64,000 nt of DNA, from the NCBI GenBank assembly GCA_001770015.1, contig MEQB01000070.1, positions 62,001 through 126,000 of the forward strand. The letters are read 5' to 3'. This document shows, one piece after another, positions 6,516-35,663 of the stretch. Source of the stretch: Bdellovibrionales bacterium RIFOXYC1_FULL_37_79 (lineage in GTDB: Bacteria > Bdellovibrionota > Bacteriovoracia > Bacteriovoracales > Bacteriovoracaceae). The position numbers and the translations under genes are program-made. Within the stretch, counting starts at the first letter, position 1. Every line of letters begins with the position of its first letter. The notes below the pieces were generated by a model. It worked only from the letters and a program-made list of their open reading frames with translations. It was not told the DNA's origin and searched no databases.

Positions 6516-6998
6516 TTAATTAATATCTCCTACATATACGTTTTCTGGAGATTTATTTTCAAAATGATAGTTAAACAGAATTTTCTTTAAAAATTTCGGG
6601 TAAAGATTGGTTTCATTAATTGTTTTCAAATCTATCCAGTCTGCTGAAATCTGATTTCTATCAGGAAGCGTTGGATTTATGATGGCTGAATTTGTATCAC
6701 AAAGAAACATGAATTCAACTCCATGAACATCCTTATCCTCTTGGCCAAATTCATGATTTTTACCAATATATTCTCTAATTAAAAATAATTTCTCAATATT
6801 CACATTGATTCCACATTCTTCAATAACTTCTCGCTTTAAAGTATCATGCAAATTCTCTTTCGCATGCTGACCGCCACCTGGAAGCAAATACCACAAATCA
6901 GAATCAGTTTTATTTTTGATAAGAAGAATTCGACCATTGTTAATTATAACGGCCTTCGCCGAGTTTCTTATCTGACACACATTATTTCCTTTGATCAA
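6516..6998 (-). CDS. NUDIX hydrolase
   Basis: 160 residues with a complete Nudix box, G-x5-E-x7-REVIEECG-I, in the first half. These enzymes hydrolyse a nucleoside diphosphate linked to another group, using metal bound by the REVxEE helix. The sequence before the box (ILLIKNK, WYLLPGGG) is typical of broad-specificity ADP-sugar or (d)NTP hydrolases. The start overlaps the end of the upstream kinase by 17 bp, making this the last gene of a five-gene minus-strand run (9648 to 6516). The specific substrate is unknown. Confidence 0.85.
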   Translation of the reverse strand: MIKGNNVCQIRNSAKAVIINNGRILLIKNKTDSDLWYLLPGGGQHAKENLHDTLKREVIEECGINVNIEKLFLIREYIGKNHEFGQEDKDVHGVEFMFLCDTNSAIINPTLPDRNQISADWIDLKTINETNLYPKFLKKILFNYHFENKSPENVYVGDIN

Positions 6999-7524
6999 TT
7001 AAATTCAAAAAATCTTTTAATTCCCTAGGGTGCTTGAAGTGATAAAACCGGAGATGAGAGAATTCATCAGAATCTTTATATGTTAAAAATTTTTTTTTAT
7101 TCTTATAAAATGTTTTTAAAATCCAAATCAACAATGAATTTCTAGAAAACAAATTATTTTTAAAAGTCTCTACATTCCCATGCCATAAAACTTTACCACT
7201 TAATGATCTTGTTATTGCTCTAATAAAAAATCGTTTTAGGATAATAGGCAGTGAAAAATCCAACCAAATGATACTGGTCGCTCTCTTCCAGGTCAAATCT
7301 CTCACTTGTGTAAAATTGCCATCTACAATCCATCTTTCTTTTTGGGTAAATATATCAACCCGCTCCCGAAATTCTTCTAGATCTGATTCTTGCCAGTTTG
7401 GTTTCCAAAAAAAATAATCTAATTCTTTATGTTCTATTGATAATTTTTTTGAAAGCAAAGTCCCAAGGGTTGTTTTTCCACTTGAACTTGAGCCAATGAT
7501 GACTATCCTTTGTAAATCTTGCAT
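6982..7524 (-). CDS. P-loop kinase of the FlaR/'topology modulation' type (paralogue 2)
   Basis: 180 residues with the Walker A loop GSSSSGKTT and the family hallmarks HKELDYFFW and WIVDGNF. It is a close paralogue of the gene at 345-899: nearly every block aligns without gaps, including VLW-GNVETFKNNLFS. The start codon is ATG. It sits between a 2H phosphoesterase (26 bp upstream) and a NUDIX hydrolase (17-bp overlap). The context suggests nucleotide or RNA-end chemistry, which is inference only. Confidence 0.75.
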   Translation of the reverse strand: MQDLQRIVIIGSSSSGKTTLGTLLSKKLSIEHKELDYFFWKPNWQESDLEEFRERVDIFTQKERWIVDGNFTQVRDLTWKRATSIIWLDFSLPIILKRFFIRAITRSLSGKVLWHGNVETFKNNLFSRNSLLIWILKTFYKNKKKFLTYKDSDEFSHLRFYHFKHPRELKDFLNLIDQRK

Positions 7525-7550: not shown

Positions 7551-8225
7551 TTACAATTGAATAATCTTACTCCAATTATAATTAGCAGCAATTAATTCGA
7601 TCTTCTCGAAATTTAAATTGCCAAAATATTTGTCCAAATTTTCTAAATACAACTCTCGAACTTCTACAGGTAATAACTCATTTCTGGTCCTTACCAGTGT
7701 AGTATGCCAAATTTTCGGAGGAATTTCATGACCGATATAACGCTCTTGTAAATAAGCTGCCCAACTTGAATTTAATAATTCGCGAACATAAGTATTTCTA
7801 AGCTTAAAACTATCATCAGTTGGAATTCCTGCCAAAAGAATTGTATTTTTTAAAGGTACTAATCTAAGTTGTGTTAAAGAAAACATCTCCCGATTTATCA
7901 CTTTCTTGGAAATTCTTTTTAATTCATCAACCTCTCTTGGAAGTTCTTTTTTATTCTTATAGGTTAAAGGAGACAATGCTAAAAAAGTAAAGTGTAGATG
8001 ATCATTTGTAGTTATATCCAAACTAGGATTATTCGATGTTCTCAAACGCAAATTTTCCAAAAATAAATGCAACTCACCAACTGGATTAAATTTTGCTCCA
8101 CATGTAATACCGAAAAGATTTTGATCATAAGGAGGCCCTACGTCGGCTCCTTCTTCTGATGATTTATCCCACTGCAAGTGTGTCGTCGATTTTAATCTTT
8201 GGTATTCGTTTTCGATTTCAATCAT
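7551..8225 (-). CDS. 2H phosphoesterase / 2'-5' RNA ligase-like protein
   Basis: 224 residues with two HxT-phi motifs, H78-F-T80-F and H174-T-T176-L. These are the twin catalytic histidine motifs of the 2H phosphoesterase superfamily (LigT, ThpR, cyclic-nucleotide phosphodiesterases). The superfamily hydrolyses or forms 2'-5' or 2',3'-cyclic phosphodiester bonds. The start codon overlaps the stop of the upstream P-loop kinase by 4 bp (ATGA). An RNA-ligase-like gene occurs elsewhere in the window (52287-53048) but is not linked. Superfamily call is good; substrate unknown. Confidence 0.7.
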   Translation of the reverse strand: MIEIENEYQRLKSTTHLQWDKSSEEGADVGPPYDQNLFGITCGAKFNPVGELHLFLENLRLRTSNNPSLDITTNDHLHFTFLALSPLTYKNKKELPREVDELKRISKKVINREMFSLTQLRLVPLKNTILLAGIPTDDSFKLRNTYVRELLNSSWAAYLQERYIGHEIPPKIWHTTLVRTRNELLPVEVRELYLENLDKYFGNLNFEKIELIAANYNWSKIIQL

Positions 8226-8731
8226 AAATTTTCCAAATATATAAAACTTCCTAACTCTGCGGGATTTTTAAATCGATATATCTTTTTGTTTACAGCATAC
8301 TTATCTAGAGAATTTTCAATAATATGTCGATGATTTTTATGAAAGTTCCAAATAAATTTTAGAAACGACCAATCAAACCGCTCAGGACACCCTTTCGCCA
8401 AATCAGGTCTAACCCGTCCTTTATATTTAATGATTCTTTTAATTGTTCGATATATCGCCAAACTTCTTGAATAATCAAGGAAGATAATCGCATCGGCCGC
8501 TGGGAATCTTATATCAAAAGTACCTCCGAAATTTCCATCCATAATCCAGCTATCTTGTTTACACAGCTCTTCAACTTTTTCTCGCCACTCTTGCTTTGAA
8601 CTTTCAACCCATCCACTTTTCCAAAAATGTTTATCAAGATGGATCAATGGCAGATTTAATTTTTCTGCTAACGATTTCGCGAGCGTTGTTTTTCCAGCTC
8701 CACAGATACCTATAATCAAGATTTTTTTCAT
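8222..8731 (-). CDS. P-loop kinase of the FlaR/'topology modulation' type (divergent paralogue 3)
   Basis: 169 residues with Walker A GICGAGKTT (residues 8-16), then LIHLDKHFWKSGW and SWIMDGNFGGT, the diagnostic blocks of this small-kinase family. RFPAADAIIFLDYSR gives the hydrophobic strand ending in Asp. It is clearly more distant from the other two copies than they are from each other. Start and stop both form 4-bp ATGA overlaps with neighbours (epimerase upstream, 2H phosphoesterase downstream), so the three genes are translationally coupled. Confidence 0.8.
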   Translation of the reverse strand: MKKILIIGICGAGKTTLAKSLAEKLNLPLIHLDKHFWKSGWVESSKQEWREKVEELCKQDSWIMDGNFGGTFDIRFPAADAIIFLDYSRSLAIYRTIKRIIKYKGRVRPDLAKGCPERFDWSFLKFIWNFHKNHRHIIENSLDKYAVNKKIYRFKNPAELGSFIYLENL

Positions 8732-25544: not shown

Positions 25545-26210
25545 GTGTCCATGGAAGAAGGTTTATCACTTGTAACTATAATCAACAGTGTCGCATCATT
25601 CATGCAAAACGGTGGAATTTTCATGTGGGTTATCGCCGCCACTTGGGCGATTGGACTTGCCATCAGCATGGATCGCTTTTTAAAACTCGCCAATAAATAC
25701 GATATTGATGGCCCTTCATTTATGAATGAATTGCAAAGATATATCCTGTCGAACGATATACAAGGTGCCATACGAGTATGTTCTGGATCAATGGCCATGT
25801 TACCCAAGGTTTTAAAAAGTGGTCTCAAAAGATCGACTCAATCTCCAGATCAAATTCAAAATGCAATAGATGCCACTGCCTTGGAAGTGATTCCAAAAAT
25901 TGAATTGAGACTCAATTATTTGCAATTGATTGCCAACATCTCCACTTTATTTGGACTGCTTGGAACAATTCAAGGTCTGATTATGGCCTTTGCAGCTCTT
26001 AAAGATGTGGACCCTACTCAGAAAGCACAATTTTTAGCCGACGGTATCTCCATGGCGATGAACACTACATTCCTAGGTTTACTTGCAGCAATTAGCATTA
26101 TGGTTTTTCACACTTTTTTATCAAGCAAGTCTGAAAAAATTGTAAATGAAATTGATGAATATTCTGTAAAACTTATGGATCTTCTAGGAACAAAAAAAAT
26201 TAGTGAATAA
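25545..26210 (+). CDS. MotA/TolQ/ExbB-family proton channel protein (AglR-like)
   Basis: 221 residues from a GTG preceded by AAGGAG. Membrane segments lie at about 20-40 (GGIFMWVIAATWAIGLAIS), 125-145 (LIANISTLFGLLGTIQGL) and 160-185. The second and third form the conserved TolQ/ExbB channel core. Two ExbD/TolR-type genes follow, giving the ExbB-ExbD-ExbD arrangement seen in the Myxococcus AglRQS gliding motor. The motor uses the proton-motive force to do work across the envelope. The neighbouring operon encodes likely partners, including an AgmX/PglI-type protein. Confidence 0.85.
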   Translation: MSMEEGLSLVTIINSVASFMQNGGIFMWVIAATWAIGLAISMDRFLKLANKYDIDGPSFMNELQRYILSNDIQGAIRVCSGSMAMLPKVLKSGLKRSTQSPDQIQNAIDATALEVIPKIELRLNYLQLIANISTLFGLLGTIQGLIMAFAALKDVDPTQKAQFLADGISMAMNTTFLGLLAAISIMVFHTFLSSKSEKIVNEIDEYSVKLMDLLGTKKISE

Positions 26211-26227
26211 TTAAAAAGGTGGATAAC

Positions 26228-26755
26228 GTGTATAGAGTCCCAAGTCGAAGAAAAAGGAAAATTAAAACTGAAAAACCAAATCTAATTCCAATCATGGATG
26301 CAACTTTTATTTTCATTTTTTTCCTTTTAATGTCCGTTAATTTTATTAAAATTTTTGAAATTCAAAGTGATGTGCCACTGGTATCGAACCGGGAACCTCC
26401 TCCCGATAAAAAACAACTTGCGCTCACTTTAAAAATCACTGCCGACTCCATCAACATCTATACTGGAATTCCAAGTTCTTTTTATAAAAAAATAACCAAC
26501 ATTAATACCGGCGACTATGATCTGGAAAAATTACATACCACATTGGTCGATTTAAAATCAGGAAATCAAAAAGAAAAAACTGTCATCCTTGATCCCGAAG
26601 TAGATCTTGAATATGAAAAAATAGTTCAGATCATGGATGCCATAAGAATACTGAGACCGACCGACGAAGCGTTCTTTAACACAGGAAAAGACGGAGTCGC
26701 CCAGAAAATACAAGAACTATTTAGTAACATCATATTTGGAGATATCCAAAGCTAG
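26228..26755 (+). CDS. ExbD/TolR-family protein 1 (AglQ/AglS-like)
   Basis: 175 residues from the GTG at 26228, which has AGGTGG six bases upstream; the earlier GTG at 26219 would overlap that site. A basic N-terminus (RRKRKIK) is followed by NLIPIMDATFIFIFFLLM, the single membrane helix with the proton-binding Asp (MDA) typical of TolR/ExbD. The rest is periplasmic. It is the middle gene of the three-gene motor operon, ending 7 bp before the second ExbD-like gene. Confidence 0.85.
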   Translation: MYRVPSRRKRKIKTEKPNLIPIMDATFIFIFFLLMSVNFIKIFEIQSDVPLVSNREPPPDKKQLALTLKITADSINIYTGIPSSFYKKITNINTGDYDLEKLHTTLVDLKSGNQKEKTVILDPEVDLEYEKIVQIMDAIRILRPTDEAFFNTGKDGVAQKIQELFSNIIFGDIQS

Positions 26756-26762
26756 GTGAATT

Positions 26763-27293
26763 ATGCCCAAATCAAGATTTATACGAAACCGAGGAACAAG
26801 AAGAAAAAAGAACGTTATCGAGATGGATATCACTTCCCTTCTCGATATTCTGGTTATTCTTCTGGTTTTTTTAATTAAAAGTTACGATTCTTCAAATGTA
26901 AATTTAAATGTTCCCAAAGGAATTCATCTTCCCTTATCTGAATCCCAAAGTATAAATACCGCAGGTGTCATGGTTCAAGTATCTCCTACCACAATCTGGG
27001 TGGATGATGTGGTCGTTTTAAACTCCGAGGCTTTAAGCGAGATGGAAGAAAGAAATGCCTATGATATGGGTAAAAGAAGAATAATCCCTCTTTTCAACGA
27101 ATTGGTTAAAAAAGTTGACAAGTTTAAAGAAATTGAAAAAGCAGCGGAAGGGGCACCAAAATTTTCAGGAATTGTGAATTTAATTGTGGATAAAACAGTT
27201 AAATATTCATATGTAAAAAAATTAATGTTCACATGTGCAGAAGCCGGCTTTCAAAAATACAAATTTGTAGTTCGAGGCGAAGAACAAATCTAA
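26763..27293 (+). CDS. ExbD/TolR-family protein 2 (AglQ/AglS-like)
   Basis: 176 residues. A basic N-terminus (RNRGTRRKK) and EMDITSLLDILVILLVFLI give the canonical ExbD helix with the functional Asp in DITSLLDI. The periplasmic part includes NVNLNVPKGIHLPLSES and a C-terminal FKYVVRGE-like end. Two non-identical ExbD-like proteins with one ExbB-like protein mirror AglQ and AglS in Myxococcus. The gene ends facing the convergent FHA protein gene, 128 bp away; no clear terminator was seen there. Confidence 0.85.
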   Translation: MPKSRFIRNRGTRRKKNVIEMDITSLLDILVILLVFLIKSYDSSNVNLNVPKGIHLPLSESQSINTAGVMVQVSPTTIWVDDVVVLNSEALSEMEERNAYDMGKRRIIPLFNELVKKVDKFKEIEKAAEGAPKFSGIVNLIVDKTVKYSYVKKLMFTCAEAGFQKYKFVVRGEEQI

Positions 27294-27421
27294 TTTTTAT
27301 ATTTCTCAACATACATTAAACATATTTATCAAAAACCATCAGGTATTTGCATTGCTTGAAAACAATTCAATTCAAATTGGATTTATTCAATTATTGGTGT
27401 AACTATCTTTCCTTCAACATC

Positions 27422-29488
27422 TTACTGTCTTGGATAAAAATTCATCGGCTGACTGACTTCCACTACACCTCCACCCATGGGCTCTGGAAATCTGATTCCC
27501 CGTAAGACATTTATAACGCATTTTTTTACGTTAGCAGGCATGGAACTTTGTCCAACAACGCCAGCACGGGTAACATGCCCCGACGATCCAATGATAAAAT
27601 TAAGTGGAACAATTCCATCAAACGCAGCTTTCGAGCGATCCAATTCCTGTTGGTAACAATTTCTAAATTGAGGAATATGATCCTGCAAAATTCTTCTAAT
27701 AACGTCAGGATCCATTGATCCCATCAAAACCTCTGGAGAGGGTACACCAACGGTATAAATACTTCTCTTATTGGCCAGTCCCGAAACCCCCTTACTGGCA
27801 TCTAGCTTACCTTCTGTCGTTCCAGACAAGGATCCAGTTTTTGTACTAACCGTGGCCAGTTTGCTGGTAGCAGATTCCACGCCAGTGCCTTCCAAGGTAC
27901 TTGAAGACCCTTCCTCACCAGCAGAAGATGCCACATTTGAGACAGCTGCTGCTGAACCACCTTTGGCCAAGACTGAACTTAAGGTGCTATTAAAATTAAT
28001 TGCCTTATAAGTGTCCACATGACCTTGAGACTGGTGATTATTCAGATTTGCCCTTTGAGGTGTGGTTCTTTGAGGTACCGCTTTTTTAGGAGTGGTTCCT
28101 GGACGATCAGGCGAATTGCTTACCATGGGCTTAATTTTATCAACATCAGCCTTTTTGGGCTCTGCTTTTTTTGCCGGCTTGGTCGTTATAGCATTTTCCA
28201 CACCAGATTTTTCGACAGGTTTTTCCTTAACCACATTTTCTTTTTTAGGTTCTGGTGTTTTTGGTTGTTCTGGCTTTAACTGTTCTGGTTTTAATTTCTC
28301 AGGGGATTTTTGCACTTGTTTGGGTTTTTCCGGAGTCATATCAACGGCCGGAGATTTGGTGGCAATCAGTTTCATTTTTTGTTTATATACAATGGTGGCG
28401 ATCCGCTCGGGATTTTTTTCCTCTTCCAATTCTGTGTCAACTTGATAAAACGCAATCGGACCCAACAAAAGAAATAATAAGAAAAAAGTCAAAACCAAAA
28501 TCTTTTTAAAATCCTTGTCTCTCCTAAAAAAAGGCGCTGGCTTGACTTCAGGTGGGGCATCTGTTCTTCTAACAAAAATCTGAATATTCCCCGCTAAAAA
28601 TCTTACAATATCATTACTTCTAAGCGATATTGAGGGTATATTACTGGCAATTTCGCTGGTATTTTTATCAGACAAAATCATGCTTTCATAACCATCTGGA
28701 CGATAAACCACCACTTCATTATCACTAATTTCCAAAAACTGGAATTTATCCTTTTTTGACAGATACGGAAACTCTAATTCATTATTAACCGGTTTAAACC
28801 CCACTAACTTATAAATACCTTTCTTAGCCGGAAGATAATCAACTGAAAATATCCTATCTCGAGAAAGAATAATGACTTCTACAGCGGTTTTTCTTATATC
28901 GTATTTAAAAATGGGATATAAATAATCAATATCCTCAAATATATATTCACTAAATTCTGCACTTGGGTCTTTGGAAAGGGGATATTCCACTCTCGGAATA
29001 TTTTCAATTTCCTTTTTAATTCTCTCCTCTTCTTTTTTTACTATGCCAGGAGAACTCGGTGGTGTTTTAATTTCCGCAATAGCAGGAGGAAGATCTGATC
29101 CAATAATCACAGAAGCATGCTTTGACAAGACGGATGGAATTTTAGCTTCTTCACTTACTCGAGAAAAAACAAATTCATAATTTCCAAATTTCAGAACATC
29201 ATTTAATTTAAAATCTGCTTTAATCACCTTTTGCCCGTTTAAAAAACATCCCGTCTGGCTATTCATATCATAAAGCTTGAAAGTCTGATCTCCAACTTCA
29301 ACCACCGCATGAATGGGAGCAATCCCGGTAAACGGCAAATAAATTTCACATGTTTCAGAACTGCCCAGGAGTTTCCTCCCTTTGGCAAACCGAATCCCTT
29401 TCGCCTTGATACCTTTGGGCCTTAATTCAAAAAATGTTCTTTCTTTTGTATTGTGTAACTCCACACCTAACCCCTTGATAAATCCCAA
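27422..29488 (-). CDS. FHA-TM-AgmX/PglI C-terminal domain protein (GltG-like)
   Basis: 688 residues. Residues about 20-110 are an FHA-like domain (KLLGSSETCEIYL, IAPIHAVVE, NSQTGCFLNG). A single membrane helix lies at about 326-348 (ILVLTFFLLFLLLGPIAFY). A Pro/Lys-rich periplasmic linker follows at about 380-500. The last 100 residues (IRRILQDHIPQFRNCYQQEL, GHVTRAGVVGQSS, FPEPMGGG) match the TonB-like AgmX/PglI C-terminal domain of myxobacterial gliding proteins. It would carry motor movement across the periplasm to outer-membrane partners. It is the last gene of the tightly packed operon that begins with the beta-barrel protein. Confidence 0.85.
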   Translation of the reverse strand: MGFIKGLGVELHNTKERTFFELRPKGIKAKGIRFAKGRKLLGSSETCEIYLPFTGIAPIHAVVEVGDQTFKLYDMNSQTGCFLNGQKVIKADFKLNDVLKFGNYEFVFSRVSEEAKIPSVLSKHASVIIGSDLPPAIAEIKTPPSSPGIVKKEEERIKKEIENIPRVEYPLSKDPSAEFSEYIFEDIDYLYPIFKYDIRKTAVEVIILSRDRIFSVDYLPAKKGIYKLVGFKPVNNELEFPYLSKKDKFQFLEISDNEVVVYRPDGYESMILSDKNTSEIASNIPSISLRSNDIVRFLAGNIQIFVRRTDAPPEVKPAPFFRRDKDFKKILVLTFFLLFLLLGPIAFYQVDTELEEEKNPERIATIVYKQKMKLIATKSPAVDMTPEKPKQVQKSPEKLKPEQLKPEQPKTPEPKKENVVKEKPVEKSGVENAITTKPAKKAEPKKADVDKIKPMVSNSPDRPGTTPKKAVPQRTTPQRANLNNHQSQGHVDTYKAINFNSTLSSVLAKGGSAAAVSNVASSAGEEGSSSTLEGTGVESATSKLATVSTKTGSLSGTTEGKLDASKGVSGLANKRSIYTVGVPSPEVLMGSMDPDVIRRILQDHIPQFRNCYQQELDRSKAAFDGIVPLNFIIGSSGHVTRAGVVGQSSMPANVKKCVINVLRGIRFPEPMGGGVVEVSQPMNFYPRQ

Positions 29489-29489
29489 T

Positions 29490-29750
29490 CTATCTAATTC
29501 TTTCCACTGCCTTTTTTATTTCTGCATGAAAGTTTTTTCGATATGGTAACTTGTTGCTAAATTTTCTTTGAAATCTCGAAGAAACACTTAAATCCCCAGG
29601 TGATCCGGTCTCCCCTTCAACTACCATGTCCTCAAAATCAAACTTTTCATATTGCTTGTATTTGTAAACAATTTCAGGTTTCTTAACCTCCGCAAATCCA
29701 GCAAAAACAAACACCATCCAAAATAAAATTACTAAACATAACCTCATCAC
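29490..29750 (-). CDS. Small secreted protein of the Glt-like cluster
   Basis: 86 residues with a signal peptide (hydrophobic up to about residue 20). A polar mature part includes YKYKQYEKFDFEDMVVEGE and a basic FQRKFSNKLPYRKNF. It overlaps the TPR lipoprotein gene by 4 bp and lies 1 bp before the FHA/AgmX gene. Myxococcus gliding loci carry a similarly small periplasmic protein between TPR and FHA genes; equivalence is inferred from position and size. Confidence 0.65.
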   Translation of the reverse strand: MMRLCLVILFWMVFVFAGFAEVKKPEIVYKYKQYEKFDFEDMVVEGETGSPGDLSVSSRFQRKFSNKLPYRKNFHAEIKKAVERIR

Positions 29751-30649
29751 TGAACTCCTATATAGTTTTTCACTTTTTTATAGTAATTAGCTAACTGACC
29801 TAGTTTAGCATCATTAATTTTATCAAGAACTGAAGCCGCCTCTTGCTTTTTTCCTAACATTTTAAGAGCAACGGCATAGTTTAATCCGATATAAGGCTCT
29901 TCAAGGGACTCATTATTAATTTTTTGCCAATAGGCCAGGGCTCCGGAGGTATTCCCCAACATGAAATAGGACATTGCCATTCCATTAAGCGCATCAACAT
30001 CACCCGGATTTTTATTTAATAATGATTTGAAAATATTTTTTGCCTTCTCGGCAAAACCATAACGTAAATAAAGCTGACCGATATTAAACAGCGGAGTTAA
30101 AACAAAGCTATTCAACTTGGAAGCTTTTTCATAAACTTTAAGCGCCTTATAATGATCTCCTTCTTGCTGATAAATGACACCATGATTATTTATCGCAGGA
30201 ACATAATTGGGATTAAGATCCCTCGCCTTGTTATAGTACAAAAAAGCTTTTTTGGTTTCACCTTTTAAAAAGTAACAAGTTCCAATTTGATTCCAATAAC
30301 TAGGATGATTTTTAAATGCGAAATAGGTTCTGTCAAAGATTTCAAACGCCGAATCAAATTGTTTTCGATAACACAAACTGATTCCTTTAGAAATGACATT
30401 ACTCACCTTATTTTCCACCACCATCAATTTTGGTTCGGATACTCTCGCCATCGATTCTTTTGCCAAAGAATCGTCATTAACTTCCACATCCTCAAAAACA
30501 TCTTCATGTTCCCTATAAGGAACTTCTTCAATGACCTTGAAATCCTCGTTGCTAATTGAATCAAATTCAAAGTCGAGATTATCACTTTGTTGCGTGCTGG
30601 CACAACTATATAACAAAAGCACCAACATAAAATTAATTACCCAATTCAT
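29747..30649 (-). CDS. TPR lipoprotein of the Glt-like cluster
   Basis: 300 residues. The N-terminus FMLVLLLYSC ends in a lipobox Cys at residue 16, so the protein is likely membrane-anchored. After an acidic linker come about five tetratricopeptide repeats (for example YWNQIGTCYFLKGETKKAF and PAINNHGVIYQQEGDHYKA). Such proteins scaffold multiprotein envelope complexes. ATGA overlaps at both ends tie it to the upstream 961-residue protein and the downstream small protein. A GltE-like role is possible but not certain. Confidence 0.75.
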   Translation of the reverse strand: MNWVINFMLVLLLYSCASTQQSDNLDFEFDSISNEDFKVIEEVPYREHEDVFEDVEVNDDSLAKESMARVSEPKLMVVENKVSNVISKGISLCYRKQFDSAFEIFDRTYFAFKNHPSYWNQIGTCYFLKGETKKAFLYYNKARDLNPNYVPAINNHGVIYQQEGDHYKALKVYEKASKLNSFVLTPLFNIGQLYLRYGFAEKAKNIFKSLLNKNPGDVDALNGMAMSYFMLGNTSGALAYWQKINNESLEEPYIGLNYAVALKMLGKKQEAASVLDKINDAKLGQLANYYKKVKNYIGVQ

Positions 30650-33531
30650 CGTCTTCCCCCTCGATCCATCAAAACTCCACCTGGGGTATATATATACTCG
30701 ATCTGGATCGGCATTTTAGCGGTATTTAAAAACAGATAATTTTCATTTGATAAAATATCGTTGCTAACTATTTGGCGTCTGGCCTCTGCCATGAACTCAT
30801 TTGATCTCTTTTCCAGATCTCTTGATAAGTCGTACATACTCTTTTTAAATGAGGATACATAATCAGCTGATTTTCCGGGGGGAGTAAACTCTCTCATATC
30901 AGTAATGATAGTTAAATAATTTTCAATCAACACTTTATAAGCACGCACCAGGCCTTTGCCAGACCCTATACTTAACACCTCCAGCGCCTCATCAGTAAGC
31001 TTTTTTAATTGTACAAATTTATTTTGTAATAAAGCATTATACTTTTCTTCAGGAAAAACCGGAGTTATCTCTTTAAATTTTCTAATTTCAACATTCAAAT
31101 CTTCCACCTTAAAGGCGGCAACCACATCCAATCCCTTAAGAGGAACCTGGTATTTATTTTTTTTAGCAGTAGCAAAATAGGAAAAAATCTTTCCTTTAAA
31201 TTCCTGGGCCTTTTCGGTTCTGCTATTTTGAATTAGCTCGTTTCGCAACTTGTAAACTGGTTCTATCAATTCGGCTTGTAAAACCGGCGATTTTTCCATA
31301 ATACTCACTTGATCTTCAACAGAATTCCATCTTTTAAGTTCCACTAACGATTGTAATACTTCAATATTGGCCTGATCAATTAAATCCTGGGGGATCTCAC
31401 AGAGGGCCGTTTGTCTGATCAGGTTTCTCACCTCCTCTATCCTTTGATCTGCCAGATACATAATATAGGCGTTTTTAAAAAATGTTTTTTTCTTGGTCGA
31501 GCTAGTTTTACAAATTTTTAAAAGCGTTTTCTCATAGACAAAGACTGATTCATTAAACTTCCTTCGATTGAACATTTCATTTCCAATGGCCAAAAAAGAT
31601 GTATCAAATTTGGCAACGTCCTGGGCATCCATCAATTGTAAAGCCCTTTCCGCCCAATTGACGGTTCTTTTAACATCTTTTAATTCATTAAAAAGAAGCA
31701 TGATATTGTATGCAGCATATTTTTTTTCTTCGGAAGAAGAATCTTTATCCTTGTAAATCCCGACATAAGTCACCAATGCTCTTTTTTTATCTCCCTTACT
31801 CATCAAACCTTGAACATTTTCAAACTGCATGGCCAGTGATATCTTGTTAAGTTGGGCAGCATATTTATTATTAACCACAAATTCATTTCTTTTTATTCTT
31901 TCCACCCATTTAGCAAAATTCTCCCGGTCTTTATTGGCTTTGTAATAATCCATTATAGCAGCCAGCATGGCTTCCTGTTTGGCATGAGCGTACGGGAAAT
32001 GCTTCCGAAACATTAATAGCGTTTTTTCCGCTTCTACAATATTTTTTTTCTCCATATGACCGGTAAAAAGTCTTTGATAAATTTTAAATGCTTCATCAGA
32101 CTTAGGATTATTTTTAAGATAATCATTAAATACTTGCACGGTAAATTTTTTCTTTTTATCCGAACCAACACCTTTTTGATCAAGAGACGCCACCAACCCC
32201 TTACTAGCAAGTTCAGCAATCTTGCTATCACCAGCGGTATTTGCTTTTTGTGCTGCCGAATCATAATAATCAATTGCCTCGTCAAATTTATCAGCAGCAT
32301 ATAAGGTTTCTGCAATGGTAAACTCATATAGGTAAGCCTTTGACGGATCAACTTCTTTTAAAATTTCAAAATACCCCACTGCCATATTGGCCTTTTGGGT
32401 TCGTTTAGCCTTATCATGCTCATAGGTTTTAGCAGCCACCTGGTTTTGTAATATTGCCGATATTTTTTTCAATTGATACAAATATTGTTTCTCTTGGTCT
32501 TCATTCAATTTCTTGCTTAACTGATATGGCTTAAGCTTTTTACAAGTCCCCAAATGCGAGGAATAATTACCAGACCGGTCGTATAAATCTAAAAGAGCAA
32601 TATTGGCTTGTAATTGCTTATCTTCATCTTCCAATGTCGTCACAGCTTGCGCCAAAGTTTTTTCCGCTGAAGCATATTTTCCGTAACTGATTAGATGCTG
32701 ACCAACTTTTAATAAATTTTCTCCGACATCTTTTCCGGATTTTTCATAAAACTCAGCAGCCTTGTTAGGGTTGCCGGCTGTTGAATAAAAATACCCCAGA
32801 TCACGAGCAGCTCGATCAGACACGTCAATATATTTATCATCACTACTTTTATCATGCACCTGTTTCATAATATCAATTGCCTTTTGATATTTTTTTTCTT
32901 TGAAATAACTCCATGACAAATTATAGGCATCCTTGGTCCACCATTTATCATCATGTTCATTCAGCGCCGCCTCGTAAAGTCTGATAGCAGGCTTGTATTC
33001 CCCGTCATTATAGTGCATTTCAGCCAAGGCAATTTGGGTTTTAATTTTTAATAATTGATTCCCGGTTGACCCTTTTAAAGCACGGGCGTAATATTTTTTA
33101 GCTTCCTTATATTTTTGAAACTCCTGAGCATTGGCCCCCAAAATATAGTACACTTCGGTTTTTTTATTTATTCTAGGAAATTTTTTCAAAATAAAAAAAC
33201 AAACTTTTTGAGCCTGAATAAAATATTTTTTAGAATTATTAAAATAGGCACTCTTGTTTGCCTTACGTCTGGTATCAACAGACTCAGACAAATATTTCTT
33301 ATTTTCTGATTCCTTGATTAAACGTGCTTTTTCCAGCAATAGCTCTGCCATTCTCAACAATATGGTGGGATTATTGCTTTTATTTTGCTTATTCAATCTG
33401 GATATTTCTACCAATTCTTCATCTATAATTTTTAATAACGCAACTTTTCGTTCCTCTACATTATCATCTGAGAAAACATTTAAACCACCAAGTAAGGATA
33501 AGATAATCAAAATGACTAAATATACTTTCAT
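30646..33531 (-). CDS. Large periplasmic TPR protein of the Glt-like cluster
   Basis: 961 residues with a signal peptide (LVILIILSLLGGLNVFS). They are followed by many TPR-like helical repeats through about residue 650 (KYKEAKKYYARAL, YKPAIRLYEAALNE, YQKAIDIMKQV, FDEAIDYYDSAA). The last 250 residues are helical without clear repeats. In Myxococcus a similar long TPR protein (GltD/AgnA) is part of the periplasmic gliding complex. It overlaps both neighbouring genes by 4 bp, showing strict co-expression. Confidence 0.8.
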   Translation of the reverse strand: MKVYLVILIILSLLGGLNVFSDDNVEERKVALLKIIDEELVEISRLNKQNKSNNPTILLRMAELLLEKARLIKESENKKYLSESVDTRRKANKSAYFNNSKKYFIQAQKVCFFILKKFPRINKKTEVYYILGANAQEFQKYKEAKKYYARALKGSTGNQLLKIKTQIALAEMHYNDGEYKPAIRLYEAALNEHDDKWWTKDAYNLSWSYFKEKKYQKAIDIMKQVHDKSSDDKYIDVSDRAARDLGYFYSTAGNPNKAAEFYEKSGKDVGENLLKVGQHLISYGKYASAEKTLAQAVTTLEDEDKQLQANIALLDLYDRSGNYSSHLGTCKKLKPYQLSKKLNEDQEKQYLYQLKKISAILQNQVAAKTYEHDKAKRTQKANMAVGYFEILKEVDPSKAYLYEFTIAETLYAADKFDEAIDYYDSAAQKANTAGDSKIAELASKGLVASLDQKGVGSDKKKKFTVQVFNDYLKNNPKSDEAFKIYQRLFTGHMEKKNIVEAEKTLLMFRKHFPYAHAKQEAMLAAIMDYYKANKDRENFAKWVERIKRNEFVVNNKYAAQLNKISLAMQFENVQGLMSKGDKKRALVTYVGIYKDKDSSSEEKKYAAYNIMLLFNELKDVKRTVNWAERALQLMDAQDVAKFDTSFLAIGNEMFNRRKFNESVFVYEKTLLKICKTSSTKKKTFFKNAYIMYLADQRIEEVRNLIRQTALCEIPQDLIDQANIEVLQSLVELKRWNSVEDQVSIMEKSPVLQAELIEPVYKLRNELIQNSRTEKAQEFKGKIFSYFATAKKNKYQVPLKGLDVVAAFKVEDLNVEIRKFKEITPVFPEEKYNALLQNKFVQLKKLTDEALEVLSIGSGKGLVRAYKVLIENYLTIITDMREFTPPGKSADYVSSFKKSMYDLSRDLEKRSNEFMAEARRQIVSNDILSNENYLFLNTAKMPIQIEYIYTPGGVLMDRGGRR

Positions 33532-34916
33532 TCATTACACTCCGACCTTAAAGCAAATACATAATCACCCAATTCATCTGCCCAGAATTCACCATTAAAA
33601 GTCCAGAAATATTGCTTATCATTTCTTTTCAAGTATTTAATATCCCCGCGTTTACGATCCTGCTCTTTAATATTTTCATAGATAAGTTTTTTCTTTCTGG
33701 ATAAAATTTCCAATTTCATATAGGTCATATCCTCAAACCCTTTTTTAATTTGAGCATAAAAGCCTCTTAAGTTTCCCCGGACGTAAGCACCTATCAAATC
33801 TTTTTGCAGATCAAGCGCCAATCTTAGATTATGTCGAAGCTGCGAACTTTTATGATTATCAGCAACGTTTCTGATTTGATTGACTTCCATCACTCCCCGG
33901 TTGTATGCCTCCATCTGCTCAATAAATGCCGGGTCACGAGTAATGGAACTTAACATTTTATCCATGATTACTTCCGACCCTCTTTTTGAGTTATAAAAAT
34001 TTCTTCCCAAATTGAAATAAGCTTCATAGTTTCGTCCCATCCTGCCCAGCATATTCTCCAGTTGCTTGGAAACGTTTTGGTATTGTTCGTAATATTCCGC
34101 AACTACCTTGGAAACGTCATCGTAAAGACATAAATGCAAATAGGACATGGCTTTTAAAATATCCACTTCGGGGTTAAAGATATAATCAAAAACTGGAGCC
34201 TTGTAAGTCACCAACTTGCCCAACGATCTATTATAATCTTCCAAATAAAAACTGTTCCAAGCTTCCTCAAACAAAATTTCTGGCCAAACAAAAGATTCTT
34301 TTTCCAAATCCAGATAAGTTAAACTTGCCTGTTTATGGTTTTTGGAACCAAACTGTGCTCGGGGAATCCCAACAACACAATTATCCTTATTAATATTTAA
34401 CTGCCGAATACGACTGGGTACATCGGTTCGCTTTAAATGCATTTTCGAAACCTTGATACATTCCGCATAAACATCCAAACTAGCCTCATGCTGTCCTTGA
34501 ATAGTCAAGATACTGCCCTCTAAAAAAAGCGCAAACGGTTTTACCGGATGAAGCAGTGGTATCCGACTGCGCAGTTTATTAAGGGCTTCGCCATACCGCT
34601 CTTTTCTAAAATATTTTTTTGCCAAAATATATCTTACAATCGGTGCATCCGAACGCTCTAATATATTTTCCGGCAATACTTCAAATTGTCTGACTCCCGA
34701 GTTGGTAATGATCGTATCTATTAGAAGTTCTGATTGACTGTTAGGATTAACATTTCCTTCTGCCAGATATTCCTTTATATAAGGTATCGAAGTAAAAAAT
34801 AAATTCTTATCGGCCAATGCCTTAGCATTTCTAAGCAGGCCTGAACTACCAAATGTCTGAAAACTAAGGGCCATGCTAATAACTAAAAACAATCTAATGA
34901 TAAAATATCTGAACAT
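33528..34916 (-). CDS. Periplasmic protein of the Glt-like cluster (TPR-like)
   Basis: 462 residues from the ATG at 34916; the ATG nine bases upstream has GAAGG directly abutting it, so the inner start is better spaced. A signal peptide (FIIRLFLVISMALSF) is followed by helical pairs resembling TPRs (YILAKKYFRKERYGEALNKL, SFYLEDYNRSLGKLV). The C-terminal part is Lys/Arg-rich. Function unknown; by position it belongs to the envelope complex with the beta-barrel and the 961-residue protein, and a GltC-like role is possible. Confidence 0.7.
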   Translation of the reverse strand: MFRYFIIRLFLVISMALSFQTFGSSGLLRNAKALADKNLFFTSIPYIKEYLAEGNVNPNSQSELLIDTIITNSGVRQFEVLPENILERSDAPIVRYILAKKYFRKERYGEALNKLRSRIPLLHPVKPFALFLEGSILTIQGQHEASLDVYAECIKVSKMHLKRTDVPSRIRQLNINKDNCVVGIPRAQFGSKNHKQASLTYLDLEKESFVWPEILFEEAWNSFYLEDYNRSLGKLVTYKAPVFDYIFNPEVDILKAMSYLHLCLYDDVSKVVAEYYEQYQNVSKQLENMLGRMGRNYEAYFNLGRNFYNSKRGSEVIMDKMLSSITRDPAFIEQMEAYNRGVMEVNQIRNVADNHKSSQLRHNLRLALDLQKDLIGAYVRGNLRGFYAQIKKGFEDMTYMKLEILSRKKKLIYENIKEQDRKRGDIKYLKRNDKQYFWTFNGEFWADELGDYVFALRSECNE

Positions 34917-34931
34917 CCTGTCCATCCTTCA

Positions 34932-35663
34932 TTAAATATTAAATCCCAACGATATTACCAAATCATAATTTGAATACCATGACTGATCGCTAGGTGTTGA
35001 ATTTTGAATTGGTTTTTGCCCTTGATAATGCTGAACCGTTAAATCGGTCCGAATGTTCCAATTTTCTGTTAAATAAAACTTAAAAGCTAAATCCCAAAGA
35101 ATACAGCCATGTGTTTCTTGAGTTAATACAAACGGCGTTCGACCGCCCAATTCATCACGATTATTGGTTTCATCCAATTTTGAATAACCAAGTCCCAAGA
35201 TCCAATCCAAATAAATCACCTGATTAAAGGTATTAAACTTGGCATAAAAAGGTGACCATAAGATCATCCCACCCACATATCCGTCCACTCTACGGTTAAA
35301 AGGAATTGACCCATTCCCACCCTGATTCCTAACCGCTGCAGCCGTATCATTTTCTTTTGAACTGGTTTTGGTATAAAGCACTTCAAAACCCCAATCTTCC
35401 GTAAAAAAATAACCTGCTCTGCCTTGCAATCCAGCGGCATCCACAAAGGCTCCGGAAATCAGATGGGCATAGCCTGCATTAAAATGAAATTTTCCGGCCT
35501 TTCTGAACTTTCTGTTTTGAAGAACATAAACTTCCTTGTCTGGGTCCAACCATGAAAATTTATAAATTGACTCTTCACTAGCATAAACAGAAAAATCAAA
35601 AGTGGTGTTAATTAAAAAGGAAACGAAAAATAAAATAATTAACCTTGAAATCATAAAAAGCAT
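34932..35663 (-). CDS. Outer-membrane beta-barrel protein of the Glt-like cluster
   Basis: 243 residues. A signal peptide is followed by alternating strands (FHFNAGYAHLISGAFVDAAG, GYFFTEDWGFEVLYTKTSS, WNIRTDLTVQHYQG) and a final strand ending in aromatic and hydrophobic residues (LVISLGFNI), typical of small outer-membrane barrels. It resembles the myxobacterial-type outer membrane beta-barrel family found in gliding loci. It is the first gene of the minus-strand operon. A second ATG (35654) is the better-spaced start after AAAGGCAGG. Confidence 0.8.
   Translation of the reverse strand: MLFMISRLIILFFVSFLINTTFDFSVYASEESIYKFSWLDPDKEVYVLQNRKFRKAGKFHFNAGYAHLISGAFVDAAGLQGRAGYFFTEDWGFEVLYTKTSSKENDTAAAVRNQGGNGSIPFNRRVDGYVGGMILWSPFYAKFNTFNQVIYLDWILGLGYSKLDETNNRDELGGRTPFVLTQETHGCILWDLAFKFYLTENWNIRTDLTVQHYQGQKPIQNSTPSDQSWYSNYDLVISLGFNI

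Follow-up and report, generated by a model that had tools for sequence, protein, structure and literature searches.

We find that nine genes in the window, by which we mean the whole 64,000-nt stretch of Bdellovibrionales DNA analysed here, very probably encode an Agl-Glt machine. Further, two paralogous Glt machines in one clade of related Bacteriovoracaceae have probably had their Agl motor exchanged for copies of one canonical ExbB-ExbD-shaft module. The joint would lie inside GltG, which suggests that motor and transmembrane (TM) shaft are interchangeable and that the C-terminal domain of GltG alone chooses the envelope complex.

The nine open reading frames were found at 25545-35663, where the preliminary description had placed them, and the ORF list together with profile matches gives the following assignments:

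25545..26210, plus strand: AglR-like proton-channel subunit (ExbB/TolQ/MotA family), 221 aa; PF01618 (MotA_ExbB) 1.2e-26, orthologues 69-76% identical in Bacteriovoracaceae
26219..26755, plus strand: AglQ-like protein (ExbD/TolR family), 178 aa; PF02472 (ExbD) 6.3e-14, TM Asp27 conserved
26763..27293, plus strand: AglS-like protein (ExbD/TolR family), 176 aa; PF02472 (ExbD) 1.5e-13, TM Asp28 conserved
27422..29488, minus strand: GltG-like force transducer, 688 aa; NF033760 8.6e-35, NF033768 above cut-off, FHA 1e-10
29490..29750, minus strand: GltF/CglF-like small exported protein, 86 aa; NF033764 1.7e-6, under cut-off
29747..30649, minus strand: GltE-like TPR lipoprotein, 300 aa; TPR_2 3e-19, NF033758 3.7e-6, lipobox, operon position
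30646..33531, minus strand: GltD-like large periplasmic TPR protein, 961 aa; TPR repeats, 75-bit match to D of Bd0828-0838, operon position
33528..34925, minus strand: GltC-like periplasmic TPR protein, 465 aa; NF033756 5.9e-37, under the curated cut-off, and alignment
34932..35663, minus strand: GltA/B/H-like outer-membrane beta-barrel (OMP), 243 aa; TIGR04565 (OMP_myx_plus) 4.2e-26, above cut-off

The same description had read the plus-strand genes as one ExbB-like and two different ExbD-like proteins facing an operon of overlapping or nearly overlapping genes. Both points hold, as the motor has the composition of Agl and not of Tol-Pal, and the minus-strand genes are joined by 4-base overlaps or gaps of 1-6 bases. 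The motor AglR-AglQ-AglS thus converges on OMP-GltC-GltD-GltE-GltF-GltG. Signal-like N-termini were seen in the OMP, GltC, GltD, GltE and GltF, the GltE lipobox reads LLLYSCAS, and the alignment of GltC shows a conserved C-terminal end, WxFxGEFWADELGDY. The single barrel gene of the cluster scores 92 bits with OMP_myx_plus (cut-off 60), and the AgmX/PglI call for the C-terminal domain of GltG survives the profile search at 64 bits (cut-off 40, E 7.6e-18). In the search of the window proteins no GltD model matched GltD, and the GltE model fits GltE less well than other TPR models do; GltE also matches its Bd0828-0838 counterpart. As GltC (127 of 450 bits), GltG (120 of 650) and CglF, which is GltF (PMC4488436), with 28 of 90 stay below the equivalog cut-offs of the curated models, we treat them as homologues and not as certified equivalogs. 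The cluster is flanked on one side by polA, an RDD-like membrane protein, thioredoxin and gmhA (the RDD protein and thioredoxin identified by reading) and on the other by a RecB/AddA-like helicase-nuclease. Elsewhere in the window, three similar small P-loop proteins (adenylate-kinase/topology-modulation-like, by reading) lie within 9 kb, at 345-899, 6982-7524 and 8222-8731.

GltG consists of a cytoplasmic FHA domain, a single TM helix at about 326-351, a proline/lysine-rich periplasmic stretch and the TonB-like AgmX/PglI domain. The AlphaFold model of this C-terminal domain (pLDDT 78) resembles the C-terminal domains (CTDs) of TonB and TolA, and its best PDB matches are TonB CTDs with probabilities of 0.97-0.99 and E-values of only 0.015-0.1. 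By sequence, GltG gave weak PDB matches, mostly to FHA domains, and AglR gave none at E 1e-10 or better. His60 of the FHA site is kept in all 61 GltG sequences, and most of them (39 of 61) show Gly-Arg as well. The window GltG retains H60 but carries S43 and A57 at phosphothreonine-site positions where relatives usually have Arg and Ser; hence its FHA domain may not bind phosphothreonine.

Conservation of the motor aspartates fits the expectation for a proton channel, with D27 of AglQ kept in at least 97% of 49 sequences and D28 of AglS in at least 97% of 54. The convergent order is the common form among 80 named relatives where the locus is long enough, with the motor located elsewhere in some. 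It recurs in dozens of relatives and is conserved across Bacteriovoracaceae, which makes it more than chance. The nearest named relative, 91% identical in GltC, is Bdellovibrionales bacterium RIFOXYA1_FULL_36_14, among the Bacteriovoracaceae.

For comparison we used a genome which we take to be that of B. bacteriovorus HD100, in agreement with four AglR positions. It carries four such operons, as does the genome of the window. Its Bd0828-0838 region (L207, on a contig of 3,782,950 bp) reads OMP-C-D-E-F-G-R-Q-S; no E or F homologue was found in the other three HD100 regions. The window shares with Bd0828-0838 the same nine gene kinds, the order OMP-C-D-E-F-G and an adjacent R-Q-S, which is collinear in HD100 but convergent in the window. 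The motor tree resolves no one-to-one orthology between the two motors. Four agl/glt operons of HD100 are named in PMC2797640, and Luciano et al. regard Bd0828-0838 as the best gliding candidate (PMC3169522); a transposon mutant of Bd0838/AglS is described as showing defects in attachment and killing as well as in prey rounding (PMC6561027). By content and order the window cluster therefore matches the best gliding-candidate operon, one with an attachment-defective AglS mutant.

The relations to Myxococcus xanthus were drawn from NCBIfam profile models alone. With the Glt (G1/G2) and AglRQS proteins the window shares AglRQS, GltC to GltG (GltD and GltE as probable homologues), a beta-barrel and an FHA-TM-TonB-like GltG; it differs in being a single locus, in profile scores under the equivalog cut-offs and in that no full GltJ was found. 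The core given by Luciano et al. for Agl-Glt/Nfs comprises AglR, AglQ, AglS, GltC, GltD, GltE and GltG. Its features in the window are the one ExbB-type and two different ExbD-type genes, the FHA-TM-AgmX/PglI GltG and a GltC homologue, with TPR proteins at the positions of GltD and GltE, and GltF (CglF match) and the barrel (OMP_myx_plus) are features of the expanded M. xanthus type.

The 4.36-Mb genome, that of a Bacteriovoracaceae relative of predatory bacteria, holds three further sets, on contigs C2 (OMP-C-F-R-Q-S-D-E-G, L016), C4 (F-G-R-Q-S at the contig start, L017) and C28 (R-Q-S-small protein-G-OMP-C-D-OMP, L018). The window and C2 sets are the closest pair (AglR 55%), and their motors also pair in the tree, within the limits of the Bacteriovorax side. 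The most Myxococcus-like GltG belongs to the C4 set, with 221 bits against 120 for that of the window, so gliding need not be the task of the window set. Directly upstream of GltF-GltG-AglRQS in C4 lies a 535-aa protein with bacterial Ig-like repeats (Big_13; L017:3-1610), a possible surface adhesin or outer-membrane partner of that set. On C42 an orphan protein of 141 aa (L019:8321-8746) ends in an AgmX-like domain, with no motor genes adjoining it among the ORFs read.

The composition had been likened to the Myxococcus gliding machinery. This stands as an Agl-Glt assignment, from profiles, gene order and synteny, and the label expresses homology; what does not carry over is GltJ, for which the genome search gave only C-terminal-domain and short internal matches. 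The absence of an MglA or Ras-like regulator is true of the window but not of the genome, where an MglA-like protein with G21 sits at the end of another contig, C54. The genome search gave no Roadblock (MglB) match, with mglA at that contig end. The suggestion of a reduced or modified machine does not quite fit, as this gene content and order, shared with Bd0828-0838, are typical of Bdellovibrionota, and the cluster is one of four sets. It is a member of a kind already described in 2011.

There is good reason to regard the cluster as a complete envelope machine of the Agl-Glt class, with a force path from motor through GltG to the envelope complex and an output most likely on surface or prey-contact structures; gliding or prey contact as the output we propose tentatively, the Bd0838/AglS mutant lending it indirect support. 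Gene content, order, homology, aspartate conservation and modular exchange in the relatives come from the sequences compared; proton flow, GltG-AglR contact and biological output are inferred. AglR and an AglQ/AglS pair would form an inner-membrane proton channel of the 5:2 type, threaded by the one TM helix of GltG, with the FHA domain on the cytoplasmic side and the TonB-like domain reaching into the periplasm. The motor would move the GltG shaft, whose C-terminal domain would pass the force to the set's own complex of GltC, GltD, GltE, GltF and beta-barrel and so, most likely, to surface or prey-contact structures in gliding or attachment, as proposed for Bd0828-0838. We base this on the TonB-like fold, the exchange described below and the AglR-GltG interaction and motility phenotypes reported for M. 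xanthus (PMC3169522, PMC3858216), the one organism in which the contact is demonstrated. A 2026 review lists the gliding motor of Bdellovibrio, together with its adhesins and force path, as not yet identified (PMC13104615); the cluster offers a conserved candidate, and its group includes cultured members (Halobacteriovorax, Bacteriovorax).

Two other identities were weighed. The motor family and the TonB-like C-terminal fold of GltG are shared with TonB-ExbB-ExbD and TolA-TolQ-TolR, but a divergent Tol-Pal or TonB uptake system is most improbable. Profile scores reject it, with AglR at 59 bits against a TolQ cut-off of 221, and 21 and 19 bits against 127 for TolR; by these models the motor is not TolQR. 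Unlike these systems the window has two unlike ExbD-type subunits, an FHA domain and a dedicated C-D-E-F envelope complex with the AgmX domain; TolB and Pal are absent from the cluster, and at other places the genome encodes a TolQ/TolR-like pair as well as a separate ExbB-ExbD pair (L024:4055-5120, on C73). A closer contender, though still an unlikely one, is a transporter of the Nfs kind, which would move surface polymer or envelope material in place of serving gliding or attachment. The gene set is that of nfsB-G, lacking GltI/J/K, in one contiguous cluster of the same order (as given in PMC3858216), and in M. xanthus Nfs moves spore-coat polymer with the same motor type (PMC3858216). Having four sets in one genome implies a division of labour, and expression patterns are reported to differ among the four Bdellovibrio operons (PMC2797640). 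Nfs has no adjoining motor of its own; in the window the motor is adjacent. Against the Nfs-like reading, the window showed no polysaccharide export genes next to the cluster, the genome contains MglA and the Bd0838 mutation affects attachment.

The exchange of the motor was seen in a nested Bacteriovoracaceae clade in which AglR, AglQ and the FHA part of GltG are missing from the window-type and the sister set alike, and a canonical ExbB-ExbD-(TonB-like shaft) module occupies their place. Neither G nor R-Q-S was found after F in ten loci (L060, L061, L063, L064, L067-L070, L072 and L077); a gene-by-gene reading of five of these showed intact flanks (gmhA, thioredoxin, RDD and polA), and with L088, which shows the swap too, there are 11 such loci, six with flanks read. 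The GltG C-terminal domains of the swap genomes sit in FHA-free proteins of about 345-390 aa, which come after a canonical ExbB and a single ExbD in the regions read. For the window-type set this triplet has a separate locus (L168-L171), and for the C2-type set it follows E in the same operon (L172-L174); the Agl-type control L175 has R-Q-S between F and D. The triplet ExbB matches the TolQ/ExbB models at 1e-36/1e-28, against 5e-16/6e-7 for the window AglR.

It could be argued that this is a mix-up, in which metagenome-assembled genomes (MAGs) miss Agl motors present elsewhere and the triplets are unrelated TonB systems. The swap genomes are indeed MAGs, and weaker Agl-type AglR matches (31-36%), belonging to other sets, persist in four of the ten. 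We nevertheless consider a mix-up very improbable. AglQ matches were obtained in none of the ten swap genomes and in all five controls (two each), and an AglR of window or C2 type (at least 52% identity) in none of the ten, against at least one at 52-76% in every one of ten controls; the loss recurs between intact flanks, as given above. Further, over their last 190 residues the new transducers separate in the tree by set (100/100), window-type with window-type and C2-type with C2-type, and forcing the two new C-terminal domains together was rejected (p=0.0016). Over the first 130 residues they resemble each other (median z 16), and their similarity to Agl-type GltGs is near background (z 0.8-2.0). 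A common N-terminal half joined to a C-terminal domain of each set's own points to a two-fold swap with its joint inside GltG, and indicates that the C-terminal domain is what couples each set to its own envelope complex, with motor and shaft exchangeable.

In the GltC+GltD tree the swap loci, L058 and L088 form one nested clade (support 100) whose successive neighbours bear Agl motors, hence we take the swap as derived. The AU test rejects the ten swap loci alone as a clade, which comes solely from L058 falling inside; the contig of L058 stops short of the swap site. The ExbB of both triplets forms one clade near the resident ExbB of the window genome (the C73 pair), apart from all Agl-type AglR, and the resident ExbD is 51-53% identical to those of the triplets. 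As this resident pair is the nearest relative found, the replacement motor was likely derived from a resident ExbBD. If the exchange is as proposed, two unlike ExbD subunits and an FHA domain are not essential for such a machine. The natural swap also predicts the site of force coupling, since exchanged GltG C-terminal domains should redirect the motor between envelope complexes. No earlier report of such a motor exchange was found among the open-access papers retrieved, and as far as these show it is unreported. In the swap clade the site expected for G and R-Q-S, between gltF and gmhA, is taken by a membrane protein of about 155 aa without a Pfam match (L060:15529-15999, L088:11894-12358).
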